NCBI GenBank assembly: GCA_027604705.1
Contig: JADHYV010000030.1
Coordinates: 206,976 to 270,975 of the forward strand
Length of the DNA stretch: 64,000 bases
Reading direction: 5' to 3'
Source: Allomyces arbusculus
Taxonomy: Eukaryota > Blastocladiomycota > Blastocladiomycetes > Blastocladiales > Blastocladiaceae
Both the position numbers and the translations under genes were made by a program. Shown in pieces: positions 1,930-31,865 of this stretch. The notes under the pieces are model-generated. The model did not search any database, was not told the DNA's origin, and worked only from the letters and a program-made list of their open reading frames with translations. Positions within the stretch are counted from its first letter, which is position 1. Every line of letters starts with the position of its first letter.

Positions 1930-4363
1930 TGGGAGTGCCCGGAGACCACTGGGGAGACAGTTATGGCGGATGGCGATGTCTTCTTTACTGCAAGGTAATA
2001 AAACCAGGTCAAATGACACATGCTGATTCTCTTCCAGGGCGTAATCCAGGCCGCGCAATTCGACCGCAAAGAACGCGACTGCGTCGACGATCGGGACCAA
2101 CTACAACCCGCGCATGTCAGTTCCAACCGAGTCTCCCTCGCTTTAGACAATCCAAAACGTACCCAAATCGGCCCCGGGAACCCATTGATGCGAAGCCTGT
2201 CCAAGACCAGCGCCGACGGGAAATGAAAGCCCGTGGTCAGGTGCGCGTGCACCGTCGTCTTGAGCGGGAGCAGCACGTGCCCCATGAAGTCCACGAGGCC
2301 TTCATCGATCGCGTACATGCTGAACGAGAATGGCGATAATGCAAGAAGGAAAATTGCAGGACCTCGATCAGGGCACCGCCGTGAACCCTCGAGCTGCGGC
2401 CAACGATGTGCGGCAAGATCGTGACCGCGCACTTGCTAAAGATACAATATATGAGTGGGACCAATTCCCTGCACCTTCTCCACCCGGTGGTTCAAACGGC
2501 AAACACGAGTGAGGTGCACCTCCCAAATTGCCACCATCACGACATGCCCGCGCAGCGTCGTCGGGTCCAGAACCACCTCGGTGATCACGCCCAGGCCGTT
2601 GAGCGCGTCCGTGAGCACCGCCTGCCATCGCCCATACTGCGGCGTGCGGGACGCGCGCAACGCAATCTTGAATGCCGCTGATCCGGGCACCGCATTGTAG
2701 GTCGGCAGCTGAGCCCTAGCATGGTCAACAAATTGGTACGGCAGGTGCCACGTCCGTACTGTTGCGGCTGTGCCGGCACCGTCGTTGCCTCTTGCGGCTA
2801 TCCTGGGACGGCGAGGGCAACCGGGACGCACGCCGGCGGCTTGACGCGGGCGAGCGGGAGCGCGATGCGTGCCGGCGCGAAGACCGGGAACGCGAGCGCG
2901 ATTCGGAGCGCGACTGTGATGGCAGTGAACTGGACCGAGACCGCGGACGACCGCGTGACATTGCGCGGGACCTGGACCTTGACCTCGATCGCGACTCATA
3001 CCGCGAGCTCTGGCGAGACCGACGGCGGCTCCGGGACCGTGACGTCGTGCTGGACCGCGATTGCGACGGTGTCCGTGACCAGTGCCGATCGGTGCGGTGC
3101 AGCGACCTTCCACTGCGTGATCGAAGGTAGTGCGAGGATCGCGACCGCGACCGTGTTCGAGCCGTCGATGGTGATCGGGCCCAGTTGGTTTCGCGGATCT
3201 GTGACCCACGCCCGGCGGTCGTCGATCGCAATCGAGAGCGGCCCCGAGAACGCGTGCGGTGGTGGGAGGGTGAGCACCCGGAACGAGATCGTGAGCAGCG
3301 TGACTGCAATATCGACGGCGAGGGTGCACGTGGCGCGTGGGGAGACGGAGCCCGCGAATCTTGATGGAACGTGCGTGCGGGAGAAGTTGCGCACGATGAG
3401 CGTGCCAGCGTTGCCGAGAGAGAACCGACAAGAGGTGGTTTGCTCGGCAGGTCCGCTGTGGGTGCGGTCGTGAGCTCGACGTTCACGTCAGGGTTCACGT
3501 CAGGTGGAGAGGATGCCGGCGCGGGCGCTGGAGCGACGAGGGAAACTGCGCCATTCTCGTCGTGCACGCCAGCTTGGCATGTCAATGACGGTTGCGTTTG
3601 CATGCGGGGAGAGTCGACGGATAAGTTTCGCTAATTTTTGCGGAGCGGCGCGCCTTTTCGCACGATGTTAGCCTCTTGTTCAAATGCGCGAGCAAGGCAT
3701 CCAAAGGCGGACGAAAGAGGGTACCCTGCGCGCCAACGTCGGTTCCCGCACTGCCCTCAGCGTCGGGAGTTGACGACAGCTCCACGAAATTGTGCCGCAC
3801 GACGCGTTCCACGACCACAACCCCGTCGACGCCATCCAATGGCACACGGCCCGCGTCAATGTGAGTGTTAGCACCAAGCGTCGGAGTACGCGTTGCGGAA
3901 TTTCAAGTCGGCGTGTCCGCGCCGCGCCCGTCGTCGCCGATGCTGAGCTGAAAGCACCATGCTCTCCCGTCCTGCGTCAAGCTGGTTGGTTCTGGTGCTG
4001 CGAATGGCGATGCCGCGGATTCAGGGACTTGCGTTTTCTCTTCAGCGATCGCCAGTCCTCGCGGCTCCTCCTTGAGCCGCTGCAAGGTCAGGTGCGTGTC
4101 GCAAGCAGGCACAAATGACGGGAATCGCACCAGCCTGGCGCACTTGCCGGGCCAGCTGGTCAGCGAGAGTGATGACGGTGCGGATCAGGAGCAGGCCAGC
4201 AGCCGAGAACGGGTAGGTCGTGTCGACGGGAGCATCGAGGGGTGCAATTGGCGCGCCAGATTAGCTGTGTACGACAAACGGCCCATGGATCGCCACGTGC
4301 GGTGCCGGCACCAGCTGATGTTGCAACGGCAGGCGCTTGATGAAAACGGAGCATGGCATTCAT
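1930..4363 (-). pseudogene. RS/RRM family copy 1, probably decayed
   Basis: This is a copy of the repeated family whose intact member is at 10121-12524. On the minus strand: the N-terminal block begins near 4356 with FDMNAMLRF (intact copy FDINVVLRF). The preceding splice acceptor reads TAA instead of TAG, and a frameshift separates it from PHVAIHGPFVVHS and PFSAAGLLLIRTVITLADQL. An RS-dipeptide domain lies at about 3330-2760. RRM1 (ALRASRTPQYGRW, TEVVLDPTTLRGHVVMV) spans about 2700-2560, and its second half about 2440-2370 ends in GGALIE. RRM2 ends at about 2190 with TTGFHF and FPGPIW. The tail exon starts at 2100 (LVPIVDAVAFFAVELRGLD). The 3' half could still splice, but the N-terminal lesions suggest a pseudogene. 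Sequencing error remains possible. Confidence 0.6.
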
Positions 4364-4991
4364 GTCAAATTATTTACGTGCAATAGAAGCAAGTCAAGCG
4401 CAAGCGTCGGTGGGGACGCGTGGTGAGAAGCGGCATGCTGGCGGGGCAGTCCAGGGTCGCATGAGACTTTGAATTTCGTGAGATGCAAACGTTTTCGTCG
4501 TGATTCATGGTGTAAATGCTTGAGTGACGGGTCGGAGGCGGCAGCGCTGAGTGCAGCAGCTTGAGCGCAGGTGCTGTGATTCGAAGCTCAATGTTGTTAG
4601 CTCAATGTTGTGAGAGTGGAACATGCCAGAGTGGGCCCATGCAGGAACCCGCACGAACTTGAGGCTTCACTTTCCCACAACTGGTATTCTGCTCCGCTCC
4701 TGGCTGGCCACCGACCACCGACCACCGACCACGCAGATCTGGGCCGCGTTGTATAGCTCTGACACGAACGAGAACTGTTTCAAACTCGAACAAGCGCGGC
4801 GCCAACAAGACAACTCATTCGATGTGACGAGCGTTAAAATGGAACGATAACCTAACCCCGATCGAGACATGAGCCATTTTACAAGTTGCAACAAGCCAGT
4901 CGCTCTGGGTGCATGTTGCGAGTTGCGTGGGTGGCAAGAAGACCTGAACCGTTCCAGATTATCCTTCAACAAGATCAGTTGCCGCAACATC
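4364..4991. other. Intergenic, upstream of FAM210-like gene
   Basis: No gene is recognised. It separates the divergently oriented RS/RRM copy 1 and the FAM210-like gene, and contains the short tandem repeat at 4708-4732. Confidence 0.5.
4708..4732. repeat. Short tandem repeat (ccaccga)n
   Basis: About three and a half copies of the 7-bp unit CCACCGA lie head to tail, upstream of the FAM210-like gene. No function is apparent. Confidence 0.7.
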
Positions 4992-5996
4992 ATGTTCCGC
5001 CTGTGCTCGACTTTACGATTCTGGACCGGCTTCCACCGCACTACGTTCAGCTCCGCGCGTCCTTACCTGACCAAGTCAACGTCCGCGACCCGCACGGTGC
5101 CGACCAGCTCGTCCACCCCACCCCCGCTGACTGGATGGCGCAAGTATGCGGTAGAGGTATTGGATTACGATCTCTTTCAGCAATGACCGGCCCCCGTGCC
5201 GGCCAGGAACCTATGCCGGGTCAGCGACATATTGCCCCAACCGCGCCTTGGTGCCGACCGCACGGGTAGAGAGTAAGGCCAACGACCCAGTGAACAGAAT
5301 TGAACTGATTCCCTGCTGTTTTCTCTCGTGATCCCAGTTCAAGCAGAAGCCGGGGAGTCATTTGTACGCGTTCATCATGGAATCCGTTTGCCGACGAAAA
5401 TTTTGACCCATTTTTTCGATTGTCTAGAACTGGTACTGCTGCGAAGAGTCCTTTGCATTTGTTGTGACGCTGCGCTGACTGCTCGATGTCACCGACCACC
5501 GCTCTCTCATCGGCCCGCTACAGCCTTCCTCGTCCTCCATGAGTTGACGGCCGTCGTCCCTCTCCCGATCGTGTACTACGGCCTGACCTGGGCTGGGCTG
5601 AGCGTGCCCGTGCCTGATTCACTTCTTGAGGGTGCGGAGACTGATGTCGCTTCGAGGGTTTCCGCGACGCTGACCCGCCCTCGTTGCGAAAACAGAGAGC
5701 AACGCCAAGATCCGCCGTGTAATCAAGTACTACGGGTGGGACATTGAGCCCAACTCGCAGGCCATGGTCAACATGGTCGCCGCCTACGCGATTGTCAAGG
5801 CCTTAATGCCGCTGCGCCTCGCTGCAAGGCACGTCCCGTATTCGATCAAATTACAGCCGAGATTCACGCCCTCTCACTCCACCGCTCTCGCTGACGTAGT
5901 GTGGCCATGACACCTGGACTTGCGCGCATCATGGATCGTGCGCTTCATCGTGTTCGCCAGTTTCGCCACGCGTCGCCATCGGGGCCCAGCCCATGA
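4992..5996 (+). CDS. FAM210/DUF1279 mitochondrial membrane protein
   Basis: Five proposed exons, 4992-5143, 5338-5363, 5524-5631, 5696-5828 and 5900-5996, give 171 aa with all phases consistent. The N-terminus MFRLCSTLRFW is rich in R, S and T like a mitochondrial presequence. DUF1279 features follow: a first membrane segment FLVLHELTAVVPLPIVYYG, a link with IEPNSQAMVNMVAAYAIVK, then ALMPLRLAASVAMTPGLAR, matching the family pattern of AY.IvKal.P.R followed by a TP motif. Exon 2 is only 26 nt and is chosen mainly on phase. The last intron starts with GC (GCACGT) rather than GT. FAM210 proteins act in the mitochondrial inner membrane and affect mitochondrial translation in animals. Family call good; exon 2 uncertain. 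Confidence 0.7.
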
Positions 5997-6104
5997 TTCA
6001 CAGCAATAGAGAGTCGTTCAATCTTGAGCGGCATGTTCCCGAGGCTGCTCTCCACCTCGTATAATCCTGGTTCTGGCTTTCGCTCGACGAGGGGAGAAAG
6101 AAGA

Positions 6105-6128
6105 GGGGGGGGAGGGGTGGGTGGGGGG
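6105..6128 (+). other. G-run cluster (possible G-quadruplex)
   Basis: Several runs of 4-8 G separated by single A or T lie just beyond the 3' end of the glycine-rich-domain gene. This could form a G-quadruplex, or be a simple low-complexity tract. Confidence 0.4.
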
Positions 6129-6221
6129 CAATGTCCTTCCGCATCTTGTTTCCGTCTAGGTAACCACTTCCGTTTGCAAAATGGAACAGCCTCCCGCTTC
6201 GGACATGACAACAGAAATATT

Positions 6222-8418
6222 CTACAGGCCGCCACACCCACTCATTCCCGTACTGCACAGACTCCACGCTGCACCGCACCCCGCAGGTGCGTATGCCCCA
6301 CACGTCGCCACACCGCCCACCGTGTTGCCCAGGTCCGGGAACCCGAGACCCGCGCACACGGCGTCCGAAAAGTAGCTGGACGTGACGGCACACGAGCTGT
6401 AAAAGTACGCCGGCAGAACGCGCGGATCCAGCCGCGAGTCGTCGTGACTCGTGGCCGCATTGGTCGACTTTGAGGCACGCTCCTTGGCCGAGCCCGAGGC
6501 GATATTGACGCCGGGCCGAGGGCGGAACGCAAACGCGTTGCGCAAGTGCAACGGTGTGACTGCCGCGGCGGGGAGAGCCACACACCCGCCCTGCTCATTG
6601 ACGGCCGACCGATGCTTGGACGCGCGCCGCATCAGCAGCGGGAGCATGACTGGCGCCGCGACGGTCGCGGTCGCGACTTTGGTGGGCGTCCAAAAAGTTC
6701 GGAATGCAGCGTCGCACGCGTACGGCTCGCCAAACATTTCGGACCACACGTGCGCCGTCTTAGTGAACCCTTCCTTGAGCCGAGGTGACTCGATCGTGTC
6801 GGCGTGGTTGAGCACCGCGCCAAGCTTGTCGAGCGTGTAGGCCGCGTACCGTTGTGGGTGCAGCTGGTGCGTGTGCCACGCCAGGTCAATGTCGAGCGTC
6901 GGGACCATGAACATGCCCTTGTGCTTGGCGAGCATCAGCATGGGCTTGTGGTACCGGACCGTGGCCTGCGTCGCGATCCGGCGCGTGCGGTCCGAGTACT
7001 CAGTCGCGGCCATCTTGCGCGTAAACTCGCGCTGTCGCAGCACAGCACGCACGAGATCCATGGACCACGGGCCCGTGGCAATATCGCGATAGCTCGAGAG
7101 CATGCTGCGGAACAAGTTGCCGTTTTTCAACTTGGTTTTGGTCGCGTTGAACGATGGACGCACTGCGGCCTGAGCAATCGCCTCCCACGTCAGCACCTTG
7201 CCGTCAGTACCCTCGTTGCCGCTGGCCGCGAGGAGCGGCGCCCAACTCTTGTGGCCCAAGAGCTTGTCGAGATCCGTCGCGCCATTCTCCACCGCCCACA
7301 CCCGCGTCTTCGGGTCAATGTGCACGCCAGGGAGCGCCGTGAACGGCGCGCCCTTGGTCATGGCCGACTTGATATCGTCCAGAAACCGGCGTGCCGAGAC
7401 TTCATTGACCGAGAAGACAGTCGTGCACGAACCGCACTTGATCAGTTGCCCGTTGAATCGGAACCGCAAGAACGCGTCGGCATCGGGGTCAATCACCAGC
7501 GCGCATTTCGGACAGACAATGTGCAGTGGTACCGGCCCGTCAGTGATCCATGGTACCGCATTATACGGCATGGTGCGTGACACGCGCGTCGACCAGAACT
7601 CTTGCGAGACCGGGCATTCGGTGCCACTGTTGAGAAAATGCGCCTTGATGCCCAAGTCAGGGTGAGAAAAAACGTCGACCTCTTGGTGATGCATCAAAGT
7701 CAAACAAGCGAATCCATACCATGCGCTCGAGCGGGAACGCCACGTCGAGGATCTGTGCGCCAAAAAGCCGGTTCATGTCGTCGTTGTAGCGGATCGGCGA
7801 GAGCTACACGCATCATCAGCTCCACTGTCAGGCGTCATCACATCGCATTACATCGCAACGCAGCGCGAACCATGTGCGTGAACCAAAACATGGCCACGTC
7901 GATGGGCGGAATCGGCGGCTCAGCAACGAGTTGTGTGTCTTCTTGAACTGCCAGAGCAAGCGCCCGCATCCATTTTTCGTAATGAATCTCGCCTCGGCAC
8001 AGAAAAATGCTAGCGTGAATGTGCCAAACATGTCATGTTCAATCTCCTCCACGCGGCCAGAAGCTCCGGCATAGTGCGAAGCAAGTGACAGGTACAGATC
8101 AGCAACTTCATCGTCCGGCAACTGCATCAACCGGAAAGCGCCGAGAAGGCGCAAATGGGCCTCGCAGCGCGCCTGCGTTACGCAGCCGTCGACAACGACG
8201 GGCGTGGCCTCGGCTTGCGTCAAAAGGACAGCAGGACCCACGTCGAAGTTTCTGACGGCCTCCGAGACGTAATTGGGCGGCGCATTGCCCGAGGAGCTGG
8301 CAGCTTGATCGATAGGTTGTGGAATGGTTCCCCGGACAGCGGCTGCTTGCGCATATCCGGGCGGTGCCGTGGACAACGGCTCTCCCTCATCGTTTGCCAG
8401 CAAGTCGGCCGGCGCCAT
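6222..8418 (-). CDS. Glycine-rich domain-containing protein (GRDP/DUF1399-like)
   Basis: Minus-strand exons are 8418-7871, 7803-7720 and 7679-6222. Two copies of the GRDP hallmark (P-x-x-D-h-x-h-x-W-H-x-H followed by P-x-x-Y) occur. The first reads IPPIDVAMFWFTHM joined by splicing to LSPIRYNDDMNRLFG, so the usual first His is Phe. The second is intact, MVPTLDIDLAWHTHQLHP. The C-terminus is rich in Cys and Gly (CAGLGFPDLG, GGVATCG, APAGCG), as in the family. The last intron is only 40 bp. In exon 1 the frame shifts by one near 7995 (AEARF in one frame, HYEKWMRALALA in the next), so either a base is missing or a small intron was not seen. GRDPs are known mainly from plants and fungi; the biochemical role is unknown. 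Confidence 0.72.
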
Positions 8419-9239: not shown

Positions 9240-9745
9240 GTCGCACGGAGCGCTGGTGGAGCAAGAATTTCGCGAGTTCGATCAACCGCAAGCACGAACG
9301 AGCATTTTTGTTCCCGACGTGCATCCGCGTTTGCTTCGCCTTGCCGTCTTCAAGGCCAGTCCACTGCCCGCCGCTCCCAATCTGCAACATGACCCCATCG
9401 GCGCTCCACCCGGCATTGTCACCCACATTGGCGCACCGGCCGCTTGAGAATCTGCTGGTGCGTTAATTGTGGCCATAATGGGCTCAGCGCCTGCGTCGCG
9501 CACGCGCTGGGCCAAATCGTTCGCAAGCGGGATGAGATCTGATGAGCGTGAGGGCCTCGGGGGAAAATTGCCACGTCACGTTGAGCAGCGTGTCCAGAAG
9601 CGTCGAGCCCACGAGCGACTGTACGCAGTTCATTTGGCGCCGGCGCGGTAGCAGCGGGAACCAAAACGGGACCATGGATGGCGACTTCTGGCAGCGTCAC
9701 ACCGTCCGCGCGCTTCCGAAAACGAAGCGACAGGTTGATCTCAAA
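9240..9745 (-). pseudogene. RS/RRM family copy 2, truncated N-terminal block
   Basis: Minus strand from 9745, directly after a TAG acceptor as in the other copies: FEINLSLRFRKR, then LPEVAIHGPVLVP. A frameshift leads to LVGSTLLDTLLNVTWQF and SPEALTLIRS, and another to LAQRVRDAGAEPIMATI. These match the intact copy (FDINVVLRF, PQVAIHGPTVV, LLDALVDLSHPYP, AGLALIRALMPL, LAQCVREAGAAPVVV). No RS or RRM part follows, so this is a truncated fragment. A separate minus frame at about 10020-9880 (LFMDRVANDKQREEY) weakly resembles the family tail and may be another remnant. Confidence 0.6.
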
Positions 9746-10120
9746 CTATGATCCAAGATCCATGAACTTGATAGAACCGTGACTTCATGCATGTGCAGCA
9801 TAATCGTGCTCACCTCAGTGAATCCGGTAGTAGTGCGAGCTCCTGCTGTTGGCGCGCTGATACTCTTACTCCCGCTGTTTATCATTGGCCACCCGGTCCA
9901 TGAATAGCTTGGCAGTGTGCTTGGGGATGTTGAATGCAACAAGTTGGCCGCTGGGAGCACTGTCGCTTCGGGTTACACAGGCAGAGAGCTGATGTGGAAT
10001 TGGTATGTCAAACGTGCTTTGTCTCAAAGTGATCGACAGCAACTTGATACTTGATTCCACAAACAACCGAAACGGGAAGCGACCGCCCACACAAAATAAT
10101 CTCGGCCCTGTCACGGCCAC

Positions 10121-12524
10121 TCAAACAATCACGTCGCGGTACTCCTCCAGTACTTTCGCGAGATCGCGCGAGTCCCGCGCGAAAAACGCCGGCGGATTGT
10201 CGACTTTGATCAACTACGATCCGAGGAGGCACATTGTGAGCAAAAACGAGCACAAAATATCCATGGCAACTTGCCTCGCGTACCCGCAGCGGGCCCAAGG
10301 CTCCAGGCAAGGTCGTCCCGTCCATGGCCATGATCGCGCTCGTGGATCGCGGGAAGACGGTCAGGAACCCAAACCACGACCGCTTGCCGGGCAAGGGCGA
10401 CTCATCCATGAGGTCGAGGGACACGTCGTAGACGCCGCGCGCGCGTGCCGCGGCAACAAAGCCTGTAATCACTTTGTAGTAGTTGGAGTCGGTGGGCAAG
10501 TTGAGCACGACAAATATTGGCCGGGGCGTCGGGTTCCGGAATGGCTCGACAATCTGGATTCGGTGCCGGTGCCAGGATCAGCGGAACGGTTCGTGAAACA
10601 TTTCAAGACGTGACGAGCGGTTGTACCTCAAACAGGACACCGCTCAACACCACCCAACTGCACTCGACAGCGCGCTGGGCCACTCTACAAGTGGGGACGT
10701 TGTTGAGCCACCATTTTGCGCTTGAGCACCTTTGCCACTGTTCCATTCCGACGCACCGGTGCTTTTCGGCGAGGAGCATGCGCCCCGTGCCACGGTCAAA
10801 GTCCACGTCGAGCGCCAAAATGCGCGAAATGTCGCGGAATATGTGCTGCAGCATGGTCTCCCACCGATCGTTTATAGGCAGTCGCGATACACGCAGTGTC
10901 AACTCGACGCGCGAGCGGGAGGTCGGACCTGATCGTTCGGTGGTCGAATCGCGCTTGCCCAACGGTTTCCAATACCGGTCGGACATCTTGACCGGGGGTG
11001 GAGTGCGGGACCGGGAGCGCGATGGCGAGCGCGAACGCGAGCGCGACCGGTGGCGATTCAATGAGCGGTGGCGACGTGTCCGCGACCGGGAGTGACGAGA
11101 CGGAGAGCGGGACTTGCCGGAGCGGTAGCGTTGCGATGGCCGCGACGTGGAGCGACGGCGTGGGGACCGCGACTTGGATCGGCGTGATGACGAGCGCGAC
11201 CAGGAACGGGAGCGATGTCGGTGACGAGATGATCGCGACCTCGAGCGCGACCGCGACCATGATCGGCGGACGCTGCTGCGCGGAGAAGAACCAGGAGGGG
11301 GCGATCTGGGCCGCGCCTTTTCGCGTGAGTGCGACCGCGGCTGCGAACAGCTGCGGTGTTGAGCAACAGGCAGTGCAGCGGTTGCCGAAGATTGGGGAAG
11401 AGTAATCAATGCGACAGACGTGGCCGCCAGTTCCTCGGGAGCCGCCACCAAATCGACATGAGACGCGGTCATTGGCGGGGCCTGGTGCTGCGGTTCCGCC
11501 GCGGCAGCTGCGGCGCATGCAGGTGCATGATCCACAGCTTGGACTCGCCACCGCAATCCTGACGCCCCGCTGCCATTCTTGGATGCAGACGGCAGGTCGA
11601 CAGCAGAAGGTGCAGCGCGCATTTCGGTTGGGATCAACGAAGCGACAGGTGGGTTGAGAGCGGCAGGTGGGTTGAGAGCGGCAGGTGCAAACTGGTGATT
11701 CGAAACAATGCCGAGATGGTGCTGTCCGGCAGACAAGTACGCTGGCGGCGCAGTCCAAGACAGCGAGTTGGGTGGTGCAAACTGCATCCTCGAAATTGCA
11801 CCGACTTCCTGCATCGTCGGGCCCGGATCTGCTCGCGCATTACCCGGAAAGGGTATTGCAACTGCTCCAGCTGCTTCTGCGCCTGCGGAATTCTGCTGAC
11901 CGGCCGAAACGACGACGGGTGCAGCACCGGCCTCGCGCACACACTGCGCCAGATCGTCGGTGAGTGGCATCAGCGCCCGGATGAGTGCGAGACCGGCGGC
12001 CGGGTACGGGTGAGACAGGTCCACGAGAGCGTCGAGAAGAGACTGTCCAGGAGACGGCGGCTGCGCTGATTGCCCAGCGCCGCAGCGCACGACGGTGGGC
12101 CCATGAATCGCGACTTGCGGGGGACCACTGGCACACGGAGAGCGAAAGCGAAGGACAACATTGATGTCGAACTATCAAACGAGGCCATGAAAGCCAGTTT
12201 AATCAGCGACATGCAAGATGTGCCTCTTAGCGCCGCTTGGGCCCATACATCGCAGGTAGCCTGTTCTCCGACGTGCCCCCCACCAATTGGTGCTTGGAAC
12301 AGCGGATCTGCCGTTGTTGAAGCGGTCAGACCATGGTGTGCAGCTGGTTGGTTGATGCCTGCTGGTGCTTGTTGGAATGGCCACAGAGCTGGCCAAGTCG
12401 ACGGCAAGTCCATTTCCTTGATAATCCTCGAAATTTTCCAATGCGGCAAGTTGGTCGAACAAACGACAATCAAGGCTGACGGTTGCAGGTCGGCCGCGGG
12501 CGAGGTCAGATTCGATTTTGTCAT
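10121..12524 (-). CDS. RS-domain RRM protein of a new repeated family (copy 3, intact)
   Basis: Four exons, 12524-12249, 12171-10627, 10553-10284 and 10213-10121, give 727 aa. All three introns (77, 73, 70 bp) are phase 0 with clean GT-AG ends. Exon 1 (92 aa) is variable. Residues about 93-190 are the conserved N-terminal block: FDINVVLRF, PPQVAIHGPTVV, LLDALVDLSHPYPAAGLA, LMPLTDDLAQCVREAG. A low-complexity linker follows, then an RS domain (about 370-490). RRM-like domain 1 starts VELTLRVSRLPINDRW and ends LSGVLFE. RRM-like domain 2 has PIFVVLNLP, KRSWFGFLTV (RNP1-like) and AIMAMDGTTLPG and closes across the last intron as GPLR/LIKVDN. The C-terminus is LAKVLEEYRDVIV. The architecture resembles SR splicing factors, so nuclear RNA binding is inferred. 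I do not recognise the N-terminal block. Confidence 0.72.
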
Positions 12525-14049: not shown

Positions 14050-14446
14050 TGATCATGACGCTGAAGCAAAGTTGTGAAGGCCGCTGCACAACGTCTGGGA
14101 TCCCTGTACACAGTCAGCAGCCGCATTTTGCAGAAAACCTGTGCGCCTTCGACCGGTCAACCGTAAGCCCGAAAGTAACAGACGTACGACTCCGAATGCA
14201 TCACCGAAGGCGACACTGAGGCTTGAGCAGAGGGACCGTGTGTTGGCGAAGCCTGAACGATGGGGTGGGACTGTGGCGTTGCGCGTTCCCCGTCTCTGCC
14301 CGCTCTTTCTTGTGGCGCCACAAGTTGCTGCAAACGGCAAAAAATGGCAAATGGCGCGCGCCAACGCACGTGGGGTGTGCGCCCATCAACTGGCGTTTGA
14401 AGCGCGAAGCACAGTGCGCGGATTGCGTCTGAGGGCTTCTTGGGCG

Positions 14447-17400
14447 ATGCTACCTGGCGCCAGAGACAGGGCAACGTTGGAAGAGGATAGGAAGTCTGTT
14501 GAGGTCGGCGACCTTGCCCCTGCCGCTTCCAACGTCAAGCTCTTGCCTTCGCCCCCTGCCCACCACCACCGCTGCAAACCCGCTGCAACCACGTCGCAAG
14601 TATTGCAATTGCTCTTGGACCGCGCGCTCGATGATATGATAGACTCTGCCCGCCTGCCTGCCAAGGATTCACCGTTGCCGCCCTCAGCCGCCAACACGCC
14701 AGCTCGCCGACCAGCACCACCGCAAGCCGTTGCTCGTGATCCCGCATCGCCAACAGCTGCCGGTTCGACCAGGACTATGACGCCGCCTGTCCGCACCGCA
14801 CGCTTCACCGACGACATTGAACCTGTCCACACGTCGTCGAGCGACGGGGGCGACGGCAGCTTTTTCGCGCATGTGCGCCGCCACCAGTCGGGCCGGCATG
14901 CACGCGACAGTCCCGACCACCGGCACCGCCGCTCTGTGCCCGCGCCGGCGTCGCTCGATCTGATCAATGATGTTGACGCCGAGGACAGTGTCGACTCGGT
15001 AACGTCGTTGCGTCGCCAAGCATGGTTTTTTGGACGAGCTGCCGAGTCGACGCCCGAGCTTCCGCGTCACTTGCATGGGCTTCCGAATCGCCCACACTAC
15101 GACCGCCGCCGACTCGCCAACATGCATCGTGCTCGCCACCACGATGACGACCCGGTGAGCGACCATGGAAGCGACTCGGACGACGACCAGTCAAGTGACA
15201 GTTATGCTGGGACGACTACGAGCACTCATTCTGGGCCCTGGCTCGCTCAGCCGCTCAAGGCACTCGCCGGCGCAGCAATTCGCTCGCCCAAGGAACGCCA
15301 TGACCGCGCGGCGATGAAGGACCTGGGCCTGAGCTCCGAGTTCCGAGATATGGTCACGGCGTACCGCCGCAAATGGCACCGGCCGTGGTCGCCTGCACAG
15401 AAAGAGCGATCGTTTGGGTCGTCGTCGCTGCAGTCGATCAACCCGGCACGGTACATTTACGAGCGTCGGCGCCGCAAGGACCGCCAAGGGTCGCTCAACG
15501 ACGTGTGGGTTCATTTGCGCGCGTTTCGTAACTCTCTCTACCTGTTTTTGCGATCCAAGCCCCTGCGTGCGTTTGCTATCATGCTCAACCTCGTGACCGA
15601 CGCTGCGCACATCATTCTGTACCTCGTCGAAATGGCAGCCATCTACCCATTGCTCGGAAATGTGCCCATGCCCGGATTCGAGCCGCCGTGGTTGTTCATT
15701 CCACGGCCCGTGCCTATTTGGATCATTTGCTATGGTGCGCTCCTTTGCAGCGTTCTCCTCCGTGATGGGGGTGAAACGCTTGCTGACAAGTTCTTTGCTG
15801 GCTCGTGGAACAGTCTTCTCCATCATCAACCTTGTCGCATTCGTTTCGCGCATTGCGTTCAGCCTAGATCGCTACCGGACCTTGATGACGCTCGAAACTG
15901 CCGTCGATGTGCTCACGACGATCCCATTCTTGATTGCCAAGTTGCTCGAAAATGGCCGCATGCTCTACGTGCCTTACTTTTTGCGTTCGATTCCGTTCAT
16001 TTCGCGCGTGCGCCGTTTCATGCACATTCGACTTGAGCTGTCCGACACGGTTGAGCAGGTGGATGCGATCCAGGGCAAGCTCGTCAACGTGCTTGCGACC
16101 ATCCTCACTATCATCTACACGACCATGTGTGCTTTCCAGTACACGCAAGTCATGTTCGACGACCAGGCGCTCACGATCATCGACTCTTTGTACTTGACGA
16201 TTGTCACTCTCTCCACGGTCGGTTATGGCGATATCACGCCAAAGAGCTGGCAGGGGAGGCTCGTCATCATTGTCGCTATAGCGTTTGCGTTTGTGTCGGT
16301 GCCGGGCATGGTCTCGTCGGCGCTTGAGGCGTGGCGCGCCAAGCGCGATGGCGGCGGCGCGTACGTCAAGCACACCAAGAACCAGCACGTTGTCTTTATT
16401 GGCCGGTTCGATGACCCGGGCTTGGTCACTTCTCTGCTCCAGGCGTTGTTCCACAACGTGCGTTCCGGGCTCTCCAATTTGAGGGACGTCTTCTTCTGGT
16501 GCGCCTTCTGACTTGACGTCCCCCCTCCCCTCCAACAGGAAGGCTCGAAACCGCTTCAAGCCGTGTTCCTCTCGCGTCGCAGCCCCTCGCCCGCCGTCAA
16601 GGCTCTGATCACCGCGCCGGTCTTCCACAGCCGCGTCTTCTACATTCAAGGGTCGGCACTCAATTCGGCCGACCTCGGGCGCGCGAAGATCGCGACCGCC
16701 GACGCCGTATTCTTCATCAGCAACAACACGACGCGCGAGGACGAGCGCAACGTGCTGCGCGTCTGGTCGGTCGTGCGGTACGCGCCGCTCACGCACTTGT
16801 ACATTTACACGCACCGGCCCGAGTTTGAGCGGTATCACATGGTGCACGCGACGGCCGTCGTCTGCGCCGACGAAATGAAGCAGAGTCTGCTCGGCGCCAA
16901 CTGCATCCACCGCGGCGTCGCGACCATGATGATCAATCTGGTCTCGACCATGAGCCCAGAGGACCACTACGACCAGCCATGGATGGCACAGTACGGCGAC
17001 GGTCTCGGCCACGAAATCTACTCGATGGCGGTCCCTGAGGTATTCCAGGGCAAGCGCTTTCATCACATTGCTGCAGTATGCGACGCTCTGGTGCTTTTCC
17101 AGCTGGTGGGGCTCTCTGAACTGATGGCGCCACCTTTGATGTTAGTACATGTTCCTCGAGTTCCAAATCATTGCCATTGCCGTGCGCATTCCGATCTTGC
17201 ACCGGTCGAACGAATTCGAGACCGAGGACTACCACGTTATCCTCAACCCGGGCAGCGAGTACGTGCTGCGCGGCAACGAGGACATTGTTTGCATTGCGCA
17301 AGGCCTGCACGAAATTAACCTCGTTCTCGACATGGTACGTGCGGTGTTCTACGAATCCGGCTTCCTTGAAGCTCTCTCCACTTTCTCACATTGCAATGGC

Positions 17401-19145
17401 GCCACTTTCAGAATAAGGAGCAATTTGACACATCGCTGCAGAACCACCCGCCCATCTTTTCGACGACGGCGTCCAAGGGTCTTCCGTCGCACTTCACGCT
17501 CCGCCGGCAACCGTCCGAGTCGTCGGGCTCGTCCACGTCCAGCCCGCCCGTCATGCCGCAGTTCCCATCGACGCCCTATATCATTGGCCAGCCGGACACG
17601 CCCTTTTCCGACAGCCGCAAAATCTCGCTATGCCACCTTTTGCGCCGGGCGCCAAAACGCGTCGACGACGTGCGCGTCGACGACGGCATGCACCTGGCTG
17701 GCCATATGGTCGTGATCACCGCGTCCTGGCACCTGTTGCGGTTCCTGTGCACGGTGCGCGGCGCGCACATTCCCGCCGAGGACTTGCGCCCGATCCTCTT
17801 CTTGTCAACGACGTTGCCAAGCCCCGACGAGTTTCGGTTCCTCGCGCCGTTCCCGCTCGTCTACTTCATGGTCGCGAACCCGCGCAGACGCAAGGACTTG
17901 CAGCGCGCCAACGTGACTGCCGCCGACCGCGTCGTGATCTTACCCGACGCCGAGTCGCTCCCAGTGCCCGGGGACGACGCGGTCGGCGACGATTTCGTCG
18001 ACCTCGGCCCGATTCTTACGCGTCACTTGGTCGCGCACGTGGCCGCGCGCACGACGGCCAACAGCAGTCTGCACGAATCGGTCATGACGTCGACCGCGCC
18101 CGGCATCCGTCGCGGCCACATGTACACGATGGTCGAGCTCAACGACGCCAACGCGATCAAGTACCTCGACCCGTCGGCCGACGTGACAGGCGTCGGTGGC
18201 ACGCACCACTACCACCTGCACCCGCTGCAAGCCATGCCGTGGGTCGACGACGGCGACGAGCGCGCGCCGACGCGCGTCGACTCGCCGCTGCAGGACGGCA
18301 TGCACGAGGGCGAGACGGTCGTCAGTATCGGGCTTGTCGGGGACGTGGCGCGGTCGAGCATGAGCGTCGACGTGATGGGTTCGTCAACGACGGTGCAGAC
18401 GCGCGCGGTCGCGACACTGCAGCGCGACACGCGGCGGCGGCTCCGGCGGCGAATCGCGACACAGGACGACGTGGGTGGGAACGTACCCGGCTCCCCCGGG
18501 TTCGCGATGCCGACGATTGACTCGAGGTGGTCGACGGCACCACGCGTTGACGAGCCCGGACCGGACGCCGCCGGGAAACCCACAGCGCCCACGTCGCCCA
18601 AGTCGTCGAGCCGACGCACGCGCACGCAAAATGCGATCCCGCCGCGGTGGCAAATGTTTTACACGCCGCAATTCGCGTCTGGCGAAGCATTTTGCCCCAA
18701 CTTGCTCGACACGATTCTTGTCTCGCACTACTACAACCCAGTCGTGCTCGATATTGTCAAGCTGTTTGCGGGGATTCGCACGCGCACGCATCTGCGGCTC
18801 GACCGCGAATTGCGGCTGCAGCCGTCGTTCCTCTACACGATCGACGTGCCGCCTGAGTACGTCGGGCGCCCGTTCAAGGACCTGTTTGCCTACTTGTGCA
18901 TCGAGTACGGCGTCGTCACGGTCGGGCTTTACCGCGCGCCGTCGGCCCAGTTGGGGAATGATGCGTCGTTTGTTTACACGGCGCCGCACCCGGAAGTCGT
19001 GCTGAATGCGAGCGACGTCATGTATGTGCTGAGTAAGGTGTGGTCGAGCGAGAACAGTGCGCGAGGGCCGTCGTCGATGGGGACGGCGGGGGATGTGAAG
19101 GGCGATGATGGGTTGATGGCGGCGGCCACGAACCAGGCCGCTTGA
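14447..19145 (+). CDS. BK (Slo1)-type calcium-activated potassium channel
   Basis: Five exons, 14447-15761, 15814-16457, 16539-17075, 17146-17334 and 17412-19145, give about 1472 aa. The N-terminal 300 or so residues are disordered (Ser, His, Asp rich). A membrane domain follows, with the selectivity filter TVGYGD at about residue 572 between pore helix SLYLTIVTLS and S6 (VIIVAIAFAFVSVPGMV). A first RCK domain starts at HVVFIGRFDDPG and continues with AVFFISNNTTREDERN and FEFQ-like MFLEFQIIAIAVR. The second RCK part includes FCPNLLDTILVSHYYNP, matching the BK alpha-subunit signature. The protein should sit in the plasma membrane and open with voltage and cytosolic Ca2+. The start is uncertain: in-frame ATGs at 14351 and 14636 are alternatives. 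Confidence 0.85.
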
Positions 19146-19389: not shown

Positions 19390-20500
19390 GTACTATTCCA
19401 ACATCCGTTCCAGATCGCATGATCCTGGCGCGAAAATGATTTTGGGTCCTTGATTGGATCACCTACACCAACACGCAGCACGAAGTTCTCAGTTCACGCT
19501 GGCCCCGGGATGAGTGAAAGTGTACACGCATCGCATGCGCACCCGCAGCGGCTTGGGGCAATTGGTCAACGCGAGCCTCGTCCGCCCATCCAACGTCGCG
19601 ACAACTTTCGCCAGCTTGTCATCGGAAACCGAAATGTACTCAAAGCGCGACTGTTTTCCCGGCAAAGGTGGGCGGCTCACCACGTCCAAGAGCCACGGGC
19701 CGCCTGGAGCCGCCTTCAACTCGGGAGAAATGCTTCTGTAAAGTTTTTCGACGTGCCGGGAGCCACCCTTCCCGGGCAAGTTCAAAACGAGGAAGACAGG
19801 TCGCGTAGGTGGCGGGCCGTAGACAAATGTTCCAATCTGGTGGCAGAACATGCAAATAAGCACGCATTTTGCTCCCTGTCAGAAGCGGTGGGGAATACGA
19901 ACCTCAAGCAAAGCACCGCTTATCACCATGCCGCTCATCATCGCGGCAATCTTGGCCGCACTATGTACGCGAGGAGAAACCACGGTGTGAGTCGAAATTG
20001 CACCCCCATCCTGTTGCGAAGAAGACGAAGACGCCGGCGCACGCAATCGCATTTTTCCCGTTCAGGACCAGTTGACCTGCCGACCCTTTGGGAGCCGAAG
20101 CACGCCAGTAGGCAGGTAAGCCAGCGTCGACGCTGATGGAAGTTGCGACTGGTTCTGCTTTGGCAGCGCGGGTGGTTTCGGCGGCGGCAAAAGCAGCCGC
20201 GACTGCAGCTGCTGAGAGAGACGATGCTGCGGCGGCGAGAGCGGGCGCGATCGACGCTCTTGCTGCAACTTCAATGGAACACGCGGGCGGGAGCGAGATC
20301 AAGGTGCGCCGACGACAAGTGAAAGACTGCGACGAGGTGACCGAGAACGCGAGTCCCTCGGCGAATGAAGCCGGACTGAGTGCCGCGATGTAACGAGGAT
20401 GACCCGTTCGAGGGCAGAGCACTGCGAAAATTCGCAGACCCGACCCCAGGCGGTGGAAAAATTGACATCGACTCGGAGCAATTCTGGCGGTGTCGTGTTG
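19390..20500 (-). pseudogene. RS/RRM family copy 4, broken
   Basis: On the minus strand, RRM2 is well preserved: after a CAG acceptor near 19835 it reads IGTFVYGPPPTRPVFLVLNLPG, then PLPGKQSRFEYISV and CPKPLR, with the donor at the same codon as in the intact copy. The upstream exon ends in ISGALLE, again at the same donor. The tail exon is shifted and carries a premature stop: DLERMLE, stop, YRDVIA (intact copy DLAKVLEEYRDVIV). Further 5' there is an Ala-rich region and a short SRSPRRS-type stretch instead of a long RS domain, and no N-terminal block is found. Most likely a pseudogene. Confidence 0.6.
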
Positions 20501-20560
20501 AGACCAAAGGTCAGGTAAGCGCTAAACGGGATCTACCCTTAGCAGTTGCATGAAGAAAAA

Positions 20561-21107: not shown

Positions 21108-21692
21108 ATTGGGCATTGTACGAGCTGCCGAAGGCAGCGAAGTGCAATGCTCGTTGTTCGAACACGAACAACGCGGAAGCGTTCATGTGCCTCCCACCGC
21201 GCCCTCCCTTTCGCTGTGTTCTCGCGACTGTGACTGGTGTGTCGTTGTGGTTGGGTTGTGCATTCCCATGCACTTTGTTTCTTCCCTGCCGTTGCTTGTT
21301 TGGCACATTTTTTGCGGCTTCCGTTTTCGCTTCTCGTTCTGTTTCCGCTTTATCATTGCACTTCGTGGGCTTCGTCAGTCCCACTTCACGCGAAGGCTTC
21401 GCCATCGCTGTGTCCCTGCACCGGCCTGCGTAGTTGAGCGTGAGTCCATTCCCGGGGGCGCGACCCTTTCAAGGGCCGTGGGGGAGGGGTGCAGGGCCAT
21501 GTGTTGTGAGGTTTTTTCACCTGACCTTCCTGTCAGGTTTTTCCTCACAGGGGCAGCAGGTTTTTCCCGACCCGGTTTGTCGACGATTTGTCATCAATAG
21601 ATGAGATAGGCACATGAACGCTTCCGCGTTATTCGTGTTCGAACAACGAGCATTGCACTTCGCTGCCTCCGGCAGCTCGTACAATGCCCAAT
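21108..21692. mobile_element. 585-bp element with 85-bp terminal inverted repeats (MITE-like, copy A)
   Basis: The first 85 bp (21108-21192) and last 85 bp (21608-21692) are inverted copies with about two mismatches. They start ATTGGGCATTGTACGAGC and end inward at CATGTGCCT. The interior has no long gene. It includes a CCTGAC..GTCAGG hairpin near 21515-21535 and the motif CAATAGATGAGATAGGCA shared with copy B at 13599-14049. No clear target-site duplication is visible. The structure fits a non-autonomous DNA transposon. Its right end is 78 bp upstream of the start codon of the next gene. Confidence 0.7.
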
Positions 21693-21770
21693 GGCAGGCC
21701 CTGCCGCCTGTCTCCTCCTCTGTCGACTCTTGCGTCCAACCTATGTAACAGCAAGTTGATTCACACCAAC

Positions 21771-23907: not shown

Positions 23908-24029
23908 GTGCAGTTGATTTGTTTCGTAATGGACAGGTGGACGCGCGGTGTTGAAAAGTACCAGCACTTTCACAAGGCAAGATGGCAAACCTGTCTCCAA
24001 TAATTTCAGTGCTTATTCCGTCGCTACCC

Positions 24030-25390: not shown

Positions 25391-26039
25391 AGGGTTTGTA
25401 GTGGATGGCGGGACTAATCGACAGCTGTGCTTGGATCGCGACTTGGAGCGTGCTGCAGTGCGGCGAGTGATGTAGAATTGGCGGCGAGCATTTCCTGTCA
25501 AGGAGGGAACTGGCGGAGGATCGGCCCTTGGCGACCGAGGGCCAACTCGGCAGACGCGTTGCCAACTGTGCCTCTTGCCAGCAGTCGACGATGAGGCAAT
25601 GAACAGCCTGCCACATCGGTGACAAATCCGCACGGCTCAATTCTCGTCGGACGCGTGCGCCATTATCATTGGGCCGTTTGTAGCAAGTTGGAGTCATTTT
25701 TGTTCTCATCCTTGTGGTGGAGGCTCGCAGCCCGGCAGTAAAGCACCCATGTAATGGTCGGGACTTGTCGATCGAATGTTCGTGATCACAATCACATCGC
25801 GTCTCCAGTGTAGATTGACTCATTCACCGCGGGAGAATGGAACAATTCTTCCCACTGCCAGCCATCCACCCACCCGGTCCCGCCCTTCTCGAAATATATC
25901 TCAGGGTACATCAAATCAATTCGCTCGCAAAGAATTCTCTAGCTGTACAGCGAGAGTTTCTTGTTACAGCAGTTCTGCAAACACATTCTCATGAAAAACC
26001 CTGTGACACCACGTCACTGCTGCTCAACATTGCCAGCTA
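25391..26039. other. Intergenic or 5' part of the membrane protein gene
   Basis: No exon can be supported here. The N-terminus of the minus-strand membrane protein may lie in this stretch. Confidence 0.3.
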
Positions 26040-26510
26040 CGCATCGCCACACTCCGCCGAGCTGCAAGCTTCCATGCTCAAAACTGCCATGCTGCTAGCT
26101 GCAGCGTCGCCAGGCTTGTAAGTGGAACGCCATTAGCCACTGTGACGTTGCCAGTCTCTGCCTGGCTGCAAGCTGCCTCGCTCCATACTACCACGCTGCC
26201 AGCTGCGTTGTCGCTGTTGGGTGACAGTACATTGTACCAATTTGCGATTGGAACGCTGTCGAAATCGTTGGGCGACAGGTGCTTGAGCTGGAACAGATCC
26301 CTGTTGCTGGATTTATGTGGTGCCTGCCCATTCTTCCTGCGCGAGCAGCGCAGTTAGAGCGACTGTCCATTTCTTTTTGGTGTCAATCATCTGATACAGT
26401 GCAGGCCCACTCTTCCAGCGCGCATAGCGCTGTCTGAGCAATCGGTGAGCGCTACTTCCACCAATCCCGTTGCTGAATTTATCATATTCCCACCTACCCG
26501 AGCGAGTTCA
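26040..26510. repeat. Imperfect duplicated segments
   Basis: Pairs of similar stretches occur. AAACTGCCATGCTGCTAGC near 26080 resembles TACTACCACGCTGCCAGC near 26190. TGTTGCTGGATTTAT near 26305 resembles CGTTGCTGAATTTAT near 26470, each beside a TGC..CCCA.TCTTCC block. This looks like an old, diverged tandem duplication. No gene is recognised. Confidence 0.45.
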
Positions 26511-27994
26511 GCATATTCCGGTCCAGTTTGCCCTCCCACCTGCTTGATCTGAGAGCATTTATCGCTTTTGTTACCCTCGCCACTAAGCGAGGATAATCAC
26601 AAGCTCAATGTCTTCAACAACGATGCTACAACTCGCCTCAATACCAACCGTTTGGAGTGTCTTGGCTCTGTGCGCCAGGTCTTTGAAAGAGGTCACACTC
26701 TGCAGCCACAACATCTGTTGCAGACGCGCTGCAACTCGAATTGATGACAGGTCGCTACGCACCCCCTTTGCCTTTTGGAACGGGTCAACAGCACGCATGT
26801 CTTCTGGCATCTTGTGACTGCGGTCACCTGAAGCAAGCTTGCCAAGGCCTTTCACGATTGCGTGCTGGGTTGCTGGCGTGACGTGGAAGCATCAACGAAC
26901 CATCGCAACGCGCGGATATACAATCCCAAAACACAGAGAGCGGGAAAGACCACGACCAAACTCGCCTTCGCCTCCCTTCTACCTGCCAACGAACCGTTCG
27001 CGCGCGCCTGAGGAGTCCTCTTGGCGCCTTGTCCGGCTCTCACAGACCCTGCCCGCGGCGACGATCCTGATCCTTGAATTGTTTGATAGTGTCCTGTGCG
27101 TCAGCAAAAGCAAGGGTACAGCCAGAGACAATGCTGGGCGCGCAGCGCCAGCACCCAAGTGGCTCATGACTGGCCGTAGCCCATACAACAGCCCTGCCAA
27201 GTTGGCAGCGACGTTGGGAGCAACAGCGTGCTGCTATAAGGGTGGAGAAGCGGGGCAGCAGCTGGTGAAATCGATCTCAAGCAGCATATTGGCCAAATGA
27301 AGGTCACATCACATACTTCGTTGGTAACAAATGACGGTGATGGTTGCACGTCAGCAATCGTGCCCTCCTCAGGGACCGAGCTGACTAGTGATTGCCGACT
27401 ATTCCAATGCGCGGAGTCGGCGACAGAAATTATCGCGCAGATTGTGTCGGTCGTAAATTGTAGCAGTCGCCAAATATCTGCCACAATGTTTTGTGAAACA
27501 GGTGCAACAGAGGCTATGTGTGAACTTGGGGGGCTGAGAGCTGTGCAGTGCCTGCCGCTTGTTTACAGCGTCCAAGTGCGCGAATCATGGCATCCTGATC
27601 AATAGCTCAAAGTCATGGGCGCCACGTCCCAGAATCGTAAATTTCGCATTCCTGATGCTGTTCGCTCCCTATCATGGGCACCTTGAAGGAACAACAGTCG
27701 CATTTCTGCAGCGGACGCGGCGATGCGGCCTGAGCTCGCCTGCAAAATGTGAGATGCGACTTGCCGCTGCGTCGTATGCAGAACCTTGACCGCAGTATGT
27801 CGCCCATTCCGCACTGTCACCCCATTGATCGTGTGCGCGATCAAAAATGCGTAGCGCCCCCATAACCAACCCGTATTGAGACATTTTATAAGCAACGTGA
27901 CGGCAGGACCAGACTACCCGCAATGATGAACCACGAACGTGCGTCTCACGAAAATCACACAAAGACTTCGCATCGACACATCAGTCCCTTCCAT
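26511..27994. other. Gene-poor stretch with weak minus-strand ORFs
   Basis: Minus-strand open frames at 26583-26855 (90 codons), 27164-27484 (106) and 27599-27895 (98) have protein-like composition but no recognised domain and no clear splice links. They may be exons of an unknown gene or 3' remnants of RS/RRM copy 5. Confidence 0.3.
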
Positions 27995-30900
27995 TCACAG
28001 GCAATCGCGTGCAGCCAAGACACATACCCGCACCGCTGTTGCGGCACTGGCCCCTTCGAGCACAACCCCGCCCAGGCGCGTGACCGCCGCCGCGTCTTGC
28101 CGGGGCACCGAGACAAACGCGCACCACGACCGTTTCCCCGGCAGCGGGACCTCCTTATTCAGGTCTACGTTCCATTGGTCGTGCCGAAATTGCGCAGCGC
28201 GCACACGAGGTTCTTGGTTGCTGAATTCTGGATGGACTTGGCGGGAGATTCAAGAGAAGAAAGACGGGCGAGGAACAAGCTCGGGAGCGGGGACCACAAT
28301 CTGGCGGGATCATGCGAGTCGAGTCAGCAAGTCGAGTCAGCAAGAGGGTGAACGCAACTCGACGCGTTGGTATATGTACAGGAATGCGAACCTCAAACAG
28401 GGCACCGCTCATCACCAACTGGCCGAGTCGGGCCGCTTTCTTGGCAGCACTACGCGGAAAATAGCCACATGGCCTGGAGTCGGGTGGTGGTGGTCGGTGG
28501 AGCTGAAGGGTGGCGGAGATTGGAGCAATGTCAGGTAAGGAAGGAGTCAGCGACGAAGAGTGAAGGTTAAAACGCCGGTTGTCCATTTCCCACGCCCTTG
28601 ATAAAAAAAAGTACCAACATGACAAACACCAACCACCCTCAATAAATAACCGCTCTTCACCGGCGCGACCTCCTTGGCGGCCGCGGCGGCAACAACGGCG
28701 GCGGCGTGTGACTCGACCCAGTGCCACGCCACGGCCCACGCTCCCGCGATCGCGACCGCGACCTTGACCGCGACCGCGACACATGCCTCGATCGCGACCG
28801 ACTGCGACTGCATGACGGTCCATGGCTTGGATGCCGCGGCCGCGAGCGCGACCGCGATCGGGACCGCGACCGGTGCATCTTGCGCCGTGCGCGTTCACGG
28901 ACCCCACCTAATCGACGGCCTGTCGTCTTACCCGGCTCGTAAATGTTCAGGTACGGCGCCGGTGCCGGTGGCGGCGGGAGCGGCGGCGGGAGCGGCTGCG
29001 ACATGGACCCGTTGGAACTCCCGGTCCGCACTGCACTACCACCGCTGGGTGCATGGCCGCGCGGCTCGATCATGCTCGACGACCGGCGCAACTGGTGGCG
29101 CAAATCGGTCGGTGGCAAAGCTGACGTGGGCGGCACGGGCGGCGACGGCGACCCGACGTGTGTATCAGCCATGGACGCGTCGTCGCCGGTGGTTGAGTGG
29201 ACGTCGTCGTGGGTCCGCATGGGGGACGCGCAGATAGATTCGGGGGCCGAGCCATGGGGCGCGTAGGTCGTCCAGGACGTGGCCGATGGGGACCGGTCCG
29301 GTGCCGGATCAGAAGGCGGTGGCAAAGAGGGTGGGAGCGCAGTGACGTTCAGCGACCGAAACGATAGTCCCGTTGCGCGCGTGGAGTGGAGAAACGAGAT
29401 GCCACCTCCGCTTGGCACTCGGTCGTGCTGCGCCGAGACCAAGAATGAGAGACCGACTGGCGTCGACGGGTGCGGGTCGTGCGTGTCCGAGGGCATCGCG
29501 TACTGCGGCTCGGCGTCGGGTTGCGACTGGGGCCATGCATTGTGTTGGAAGATCGAGGCCGAAAGCGTCCGTTTTAGCGGTTCTGAGGACTGAGTTGGTG
29601 GACGCGGTGATTGCGGTGCAGGGGCGGCAGAGTGAGCCGAAAAACGCGGTGGCGGTAGCAGCGGCGGAGGAGGAGGGGCAGCTGAACGAGTCGAATGGGG
29701 TGATGGCGGCGGAGGTGCAGCATGATGATCCGGAAGATGCGGTGGAGGCAGCAGCCGCGGCAAGGGAGGAGCAACAGAATGGGCCGGAAGGCGCGCTGGG
29801 GGAAGCAACGGCGGCGGTTCCGCGACTTCAGGGACGTCCACGTCCATAACGTCAGGATGCACGTCGGGCGCCGGACTTGCCTCGGGAAACCCGAAAGAGC
29901 GCGTCTGCGGCGCAACGTCGTGCGCCAGCGTCGTTGTTGATGAAGATGGCTCCGTCACTGCTGGTGCAACGGGCGCAGAGACCTGCTGCTCTGGCCGAGC
30001 CGAGTCGCATGTTGGTGGGAATGGTGGAAGCACACGGGCAGAACTCGCCGGCGGCCGCTCTTCGGGCTCAGGAGCAAATGAGCGCTGGAACGTGCGCATT
30101 TGGAGCGGGCTCGTCGGGCCAGGCGACATGTCCATTGGTTCAGGCAAATCTGTCGCCGTCGGTTCCCATGGGAATGACTCACTCGATGCCACTGGTGTTG
30201 CAGCGAGTGGGGAATGTGCTCTATGAGGGGATGGTGTTCGTGGTCGAGGAAGCGACGGTTCCCGTTGCGGCTGATCGCGAGAATCAGCGGCATTGTGGCC
30301 ACAATCGCGGGCTGCAGGGCGGTCGCGTGGTTCCCGCTCAGCGACCAGCGCCCCAGAGCAAGCTAGATTCGACGGTAGACTGTCGGGTTCGGGCTGCGCG
30401 CGAGGCTCGAGGGGAGGCTGATCAAAACGAGGTGGCGGTCGAGATTGCTCCACTGGTGGAGGTTGCTCAGGAGGAGATGGAAGAGCACGAGCGTTGGGCG
30501 CAGACGGAAGTGGTCCAGGATCGGGTAAAGGTGGAGCAGCAGCACGAGGCGAAATCGGTGGTCGTCGGGGGAGCTCCGGTGGCGTCAACGCATCAGGAGC
30601 AACGGGAGCCTCGCACGGGTAGCATGGGCCCGAATTCGCCGCGTCATGGCCGTAATCGTCGTCGGAATCTGACAGCAGGTCAATGATCATGGATTCGAGC
30701 GACTGGCGAGCGCGACGTGGAGAACGAACAGGCAGCGCACGAGCGGGAGCCGACACGGGCGGCGTCCTGGGCGGTGATGGTCCTGGTCGGTCCCCATCTG
30801 GTGCTAGCGACGGGGGGCACGAGGCCAATGGGCACGCTGCAGCATCGTGAGGTTGGTCAGCGGGTGGAGCGGCGGGTACTGCACGAGACGCGTCGTGTTC

Positions 30901-31865
30901 GGGAGCAGCGACAGGAGGTGGCCGTATTGGAGTGGTCGGATGTTGCTGTTGCGTATCCGCATGCGGTAACGGCGTCGCACGCGCCGGTGGAGACGCAGGA
31001 ACGGTTTTGGGCGCATTTCGTCCCGGCTCAGCGCACTCAGGTCGCCCGTCGGCAGGTCCTGGCGAGGCACGAGGCGCTTGCGGCGCGTTCTGCGCGACTG
31101 AAGAGTACACGGCAGGTGACGACGATGCCGCGGGCTGTTCCGAGCGCGCACTCGACGGCGATGGCGACGGGGCGGGCGTGCTCCTCGGCGGGGTCAATGC
31201 TCCACACGATGCAGCGGGATCAACGATGGCGGGAATAGTGACGGCAGCAGGTGGAGGTCGTGGCACGTCAACCTGCATGAAAGACGGCTGCGCGGATTCG
31301 TTCGTACGCGGTGGTGGTGGTGGAGCCGGCCGCTGGGTCTCAAGTGCCGCGGTGCGCTGAGCTTCCATACTGCTTGGCGTGCTCACATGGTCGGGAGCAG
31401 TGACATGACTAGGCGGCGGGGACAAATCTGGTTTCGAGATGGTCCCAACGATAGGAGCACCGCCGGCATGACGGATACGGGCAGCAAGTTCGTCGGAAAG
31501 CGGCATCAACGACCGAATGAGGGCGAGGCCAGCGGGCGTGTACTGGCGCGACAAGTCGACGAGAGCCTCGAGCAGCGTCTGGCCCACGAGCGACACGGTT
31601 CCCGGCGCGGTCGTGGCCAGGTCGTGCACGACGGCGGGGCCGTAAATGGTAACGTGCGGTCCGGGGGCACTGTCTGCTGCAGATGGGGCGCGTGTCGAGA
31701 AGCGGAGCGACAGATTGACGGCAAACTAGTGGACCATGACGAATCGCATGAGCTCTTGCGAGTCCACCTTGTAAAAAGTATGAGCGGGACAAGTACTTCG
31801 TCGGCACGACAAGGTGGGTCGGCGCCAGTCCGGCGGCCTCGACGAGCAACGCTGAAGAACGACAT
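27995..31865 (-). pseudogene. RS/RRM family copy 5, very large central exon, damaged 3' part
   Basis: Minus strand. A possible short exon 1 (31865-31797) is spliced over 71 bp to an exon starting at 31725 with FAVNLSLRF, then GPHVTIYGPAVV, LVGQTLLEALVDLS, GLALIRSLMPLSDELAAR. This frame stays open for about 1,020 codons to 28657. A very long proline-rich, acidic middle leads to an RS domain ending near 28740. A further exon ends LVMSGALFE near 28415. RRM2 starts at IVVPAPELVPRP but is split by at least two frameshifts between PVFLLLNLP and LNKEVPLPGKRSWCAFVSV. RRM1 is not recognisable. The intact 3-kb exon suggests recent function; the RRM2 lesions suggest decay or sequencing error. Confidence 0.6.

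Follow-up and report, generated by a model that had tools for sequence, protein, structure and literature searches.

The final 64 kb of contig C30 (positions 206976–270975 of 270975; hereafter the window) in a eukaryotic assembly of 25.9 Mb and 197 contigs carries copies of a multigene family. With a probability of roughly 60%, we read this family as one of RS/RRM RNA-binding proteins, diversifying and local to the genome examined, that probably act as regulators of RNA processing. Its members share a common architecture and common introns, their last domain is an RRM, their places in the genome can be counted, and most of the copies in the window have decayed. A complete member would comprise a low-complexity start, a new predicted alpha/beta N-terminal domain, a disordered linker, an RS region, an RRM1-like unit, RRM2, and a short acidic/FF tail.

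Within the window, six-frame reading and tblastn located five places (copies A to E). All lie on the minus strand, as the original prediction had stated, and have in common an N-terminal block (N-block) and/or an RS region, a C-terminal RRM-like exon, and a tail. When the copy C N-block was compared with the rest of the window, it scored 70.9 bits against E (31447–31725), 57.8 bits against A (4114–4302), and, in pieces, 30.4, 30.4, and 23.9 bits against B (9468–9745); the best of 200 shuffled queries reached 26.6 bits. Likewise, the copy C RRM2 scored 40.0 bits against E (28049–28171) and 37.0 bits against D (19579–19812), with 27.7 bits as the best of 200 shuffled queries. The likeness is therefore real, exceeds RS low complexity, and extends to sequence beyond the RS region, so that a similarity confined to low-complexity RS sequence, the outcome named beforehand as refuting the prediction, is not what the comparison returned.

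Copy C (12171–10121, minus strand) is open from the N-block to the stop, with four exons, three GT-AG introns, 611 amino acids, and a single terminal stop; the first exon, with the start codon, lies outside this 611-codon model. Its features are:

11902–12171, minus strand: N-terminal block, beginning directly after an intron-like TAG that resembles a 3' splice site
11326–11901, minus strand: low-complexity linker, read from the translation
10978–11325, minus strand: RS region, from the RS/SR dipeptide count
10757–10911, minus strand: RRM1-like unit, first part (RRM-like only, short of an established RRM fold in copy C)
10685–10756, minus strand: intron within RRM1, 72 bases, GT..AG
10627–10684, minus strand: RRM1-like unit, second part (..VVLSGVLFE)
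10554–10626, minus strand: intron after '..GVLFE', 73 bases, GT..AG, the same junction being readable in D and E
10284–10553, minus strand: RRM2 exon (PRPIFVVLNLP .. PLPGKRSWFGFLTV), from similarity, profile, and predicted fold
10214–10283, minus strand: intron between RRM2 and tail, 70 bases, GT..AG
10121–10213, minus strand: tail exon (VDNPPAFFARDSRDL..) and stop

The RS region holds 44 RS/SR dipeptides in a 120-residue stretch, compared with a mean of 26.7 and a maximum of 40 in 1000 shuffles. In D and E the junction reads 'GALFE|', and other junctions can be read by eye in copies elsewhere in the genome. The original prediction overlooked these shared introns, as it did the broken or incomplete state of four of the five window copies. 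The introns bear on whether the family could be a retroelement ORF1, some of which have RRMs, or a derivative of one. Such an origin would fit the multi-copy, dispersed occurrence of the family, but several introns are kept at the same positions (modelled in C; by eye in D, E, and others), and direct DNA repeats of at least 40 bases are absent from window positions 1–34000. We consider this origin highly improbable and reject it because the copies share introns.

The remaining window copies are represented by the following features:

4108–4363, minus strand: copy A N-block, broken by a frame change and a TAA
2725–3630, minus strand: copy A RS frame
1987–2669, minus strand: copy A RRM1-like stretch (2565–2669) and tail-like stretch (near 2000–2100), weak, assigned by position and by eye
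9468–9745, minus strand: copy B, N-block only, in more than one frame
19390–20500, minus strand: copy D, with an RS-like stretch, the RRM1 end (..VISGALLE), RRM2 (19537–19836), and a tail with an in-frame stop
28657–31725, minus strand: copy E open frame of 1022 codons, with the N-block (31438–31725), a proline-rich stretch, and RS
28028–28448, minus strand: copy E RRM1 end (..VMSGALFE) and RRM2, across two frames

Profile matches in copy A are weak (E 0.29 for the RRM1-like stretch and 0.17 for the tail). Neither tblastn in the window nor the N-block profile found an N-block in copy D, and copy B is a frame-broken N-block only. The claim of five copies with conserved blocks stands for five places, four of which are broken or partial. 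Copy E is not intact, because its RRM2 stretch occupies two frames and the first half of its RRM1 was not found in the window search; copy C is the copy open throughout, and the sole one in the window that still looks able to make the protein.

Decay on this scale invites the reading that a once-useful family is now mostly dead and that the window array consists of pseudogenes without a present role, and stops within N-blocks outside the window (C100:27097, C100:8494, and C26:302271) point the same way. However, the four exons of copy C remain open, as do exons of several copies elsewhere (C26:294.9k, C34, and C123), and the codon pattern described below is one of constraint, though possibly constraint in the past. 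We therefore regard a family of relics as unlikely.

The window also contains features separate from the family. Between copies C and D, the plus strand carries a Slowpoke-like potassium channel (14078–19145), and an inverted repeat of 85 bases (21108–21192 and 21608–21692, 97.6% identical) is found between genes. At 37405–38463 is a frame that we take to resemble a large-conductance mechanosensitive channel (MscL), presumably unusual in a eukaryote. A sequence at 56806–57624 recurs in direct orientation at 58131–58951 with 80% identity across about 840 columns, the second copy overlapping a frame that we take to resemble the succinate dehydrogenase cytochrome b subunit. The contig end (63700–64000) is G/C-only low-complexity sequence and looks like an assembly or sequencing artefact.

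Genome-wide, the family extends well past the window. Single-protein searches of the genome with N-blocks returned 4 (at E<=0.001), 15 (at E<=1), and 19 (at E<=1) matches, and those with RRM1 or RRM2 queries returned 4, 1, 2, 3, 6, and 7. In a census that applied profiles built from family members to 4326 open segments drawn from 18 sources, the N-block profile identified 26 distinct places at E<=0.01, some of them partial; 13 had been used to build the profile and 13 had not. This count, which the original prediction had proposed as a check, is a lower bound because the loci examined were chosen by similarity searches. The places are distributed over eight contigs (C12, C26, C30, C34, C99, C100, C123, and C134) and both strands, so that "five-copy, one strand" describes the window only. 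RRM-containing relatives without a scored N-block are copy D, a locus at 13 kb on C123 whose N-block is read by eye only, and one on C30 at 200–203 kb. All 27 listed family spans are within 68 kb of a contig end, but most of these contigs are short and we attach no significance to the figure.

Two long relatives were identified, one on C12 (about 472–474 kb) and one on the plus strand of C30 (about 200.0–202.5 kb). The tail of the latter lies about 4.5 kb before the window, which is at odds with a single-stranded family. Each contains an N-block-like end, an extra RRM-like unit, RS, RRM1, RRM2, and a tail. The extra unit before RS is recognised by eye in both and has no Pfam match in either; the last RRM-like stretch in C12 is likewise assigned by eye, without Pfam support. 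With the family profiles, the C12 relative scores 0.0047 for the N-block and 0.01 for the tail, and the RRM2 profile matches both of its RRMs (4.2e-14 for the segment). Its whole exon matches PF00076 in two stretches (5.5e-5, 23.4 bits over a cut-off of 20.7), and the same domains cut singly fall under the cut-off (0.24 and 0.0016; RRM2 alone, 18.7 bits). The corresponding domains of the C30 relative match nothing in Pfam. A profile of long-relative units, from rows joined by hand, matched 227 PDB sequences at E<=1, the best being PUB1 (4.6e-9). These long relatives seem ancestral-like, and a gene of their kind may have given rise to the short copies.

The last domain, RRM2, is identified as an RRM by its profile, its predicted fold, and its RNP1 aromatics. 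The best PDB match of the RRM2 profile is cS22 (1.5e-5, improving to 4.8e-6 with more rows), followed by U2AF65 RRM1 (0.028), and 57 of the 58 matches carry the names of RRM proteins. The AF2 model of the copy C RRM2 (six rows, pLDDT 72) has the beta-alpha-beta-beta-alpha-beta topology of an RRM. Its best Foldseek match is the CFIm68 RRM (E 2.8e-3, probability 1.00), no match reaching 0.001, and 45 of 50 rows among the matches listed are RRMs by name. RNP1 position 3 is aromatic in 12 of 13 hand-picked rows and position 5 also in 12 of 13; in two readable rows outside the 13 (C123 at 3.6 kb and C26 at 308.4 kb), position 5 is aliphatic.

The Pfam results count against this assignment: none of the short copies tested has a Pfam RRM match, and a six-frame search of the whole genome with PF00076 gave 126 matches at E<=0.1, none of them in the family. 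A separate, ordinary RRM gene is present in the window at 33708–33953 (PF00076, 19.5 bits; 26.3 with its neighbours in frame). The original description of an RS/RRM architecture was right about the RS region and the C-terminal RRM-like domain but missed the second RRM-like unit between them. By sequence, the domain preceding RRM2 is confirmed as an RRM only in the C12 relative. The RRM1 profile of the short copies found no RRM in the PDB, and hhalign of this RRM1 to RRM2 gave E 0.0033 over 28 columns (probability 9.8).

The N-block is, within the libraries searched, a new domain with a confidently predicted fold. In its AF2 model (13 rows; pLDDT 86.7, pTM 0.69), two strands are followed by three helices and a final strand (ββαααβ). 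Foldseek against the PDB returned 52 matches at E<=10, the best at 2.3, and against viral models a best match of 0.65; a search of a viral collection with one C123 copy gave no match. Among eight PDB profile matches at E<=10, none was judged convincing, the best being a partial armadillo match to Sperm-associated antigen 6 (0.013 over 41 positions), followed by superoxide dismutases. Pfam searches with 13 members gave at best SnoaL_4 (0.031) and HVO_B0008_C (0.11), in one member each, and the C12 N-block matched Cupin_6 under the cut-off (0.0064). We therefore reject a known N-terminal domain and retain, for the Pfam, PDB, and viral libraries, the earlier description of the block as unrecognised. 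The other outcome that the original prediction had named as refuting it, a profile search that assigns the N-block to a known family, did not occur in Pfam, in the PDB profile search, or in the two fold libraries. A further RRM is rejected as well, hhalign to RRM1 and RRM2 having given nothing and the model being ββαααβ.

The N-blocks evolved as protein, since codon position 3 is the least conserved in all nine pairs compared and NG86 dN/dS is 0.18–0.62; dS is at least 1 in seven of the nine and near saturation in several. In a tree of 14 N-blocks, the one well-supported split (98/96) separates three C30 rows and C34 from C26, C100, C123, and C134; the window copies are not resolved as one clade, and C34 and C26_b form long branches. 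When the family loci were compared at the DNA level, the N-block exons of C26 c and d stood out as one recent pair, with 81% identity across 182 bases. Beside family clusters, a 271-base stretch is 94% identical between C26 and C123 (L011 7123–7393; L031 1–266) and may be a recent duplication or the result of overlapping contigs.

Many divergent, clustered copies with turnover, whose N-blocks are mostly 20–60% identical, would also be expected of a repertoire under conflict, in which copies diversify to recognise changing RNA targets such as mobile elements, RNA viruses, or non-self RNA. With dN/dS below 1 in every pair, we find this doubtful. The same doubt attaches to a speculative version in which the N-block is a new domain marking a fast-diversifying RS/RRM repertoire, each copy would aim at different RNAs or partners, and the broken window copies would represent turnover, a logic like that of expanded recognition families.

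Among known proteins, U2AF65/RBM39 type factors have the domain order that the family most resembles, but by sequence the family does not pass as one of them. U2AF65 and RBM39 (CAPER) similarly have an RS region N-terminal to tandem RRMs, and the PDB profile search with the family RRM2 places U2AF65 RRM1 among its better matches. However, the best family matches to their models have E values of 8.7 (TIGR01642, one copy) and 0.34 (TIGR01622), the family has the unrecognised N-domain, and its tail is unlike the UHM. The genome's own U2AF65 is a separate gene (C30:111161–112090), and none of 31 own-genome TIGR01642 matches is in the family; we therefore reject the possibility that these are U2AF65 paralogs. 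The best sequence-profile and single-sequence matches of the family RRMs (PUB1, CstF64, cS22/PSRP2, and PTB) are at the level of the RRM superfamily, not of orthologs, and those proteins are not known to have the RS region or the N-domain. Canonical SR proteins (SRSF) also combine RRM and RS. By definition, they have N-terminal RRM(s) and a C-terminal RS region (PMC3173450). The order is reversed in copy C and every open copy read, with the N-domain in addition, so the family members are not canonical SR proteins, contrary to the resemblance to SR splicing factors originally suggested. A search of the literature (titles and abstract starts) produced no description that we recognised as such a family.

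The combination of an RS region and a C-terminal RRM-like domain in one gene family suggests, as originally proposed, a probable RNA-binding role. In our preferred reading of an RS/RRM RNA-binding family, the RNP1 aromatics of RRM2 would make the contact with RNA, the RS region would bring about nuclear localisation and recruitment to the splicing/RNA-processing machinery, and the N-domain may be a protein–protein docking module, perhaps a dimer. The copies would go back to duplicated genes that contained introns, perhaps ultimately to a longer one like those on C12 and beside the window, and many would then have decayed in a process of birth and death.

As a rule, RS/RRM factors in RNA processing are conserved and low in number. 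If the copies are dead or unexpressed, the family would be a duplicated-gene curiosity. With at least 26 N-block places in a small genome, a domain without a convincing known relative, and birth-and-death evolution, it would be a test case for why an RNA-binding family multiplies and diverges, and would also bear on the contribution of a new domain to proteins of the RS/RRM type.
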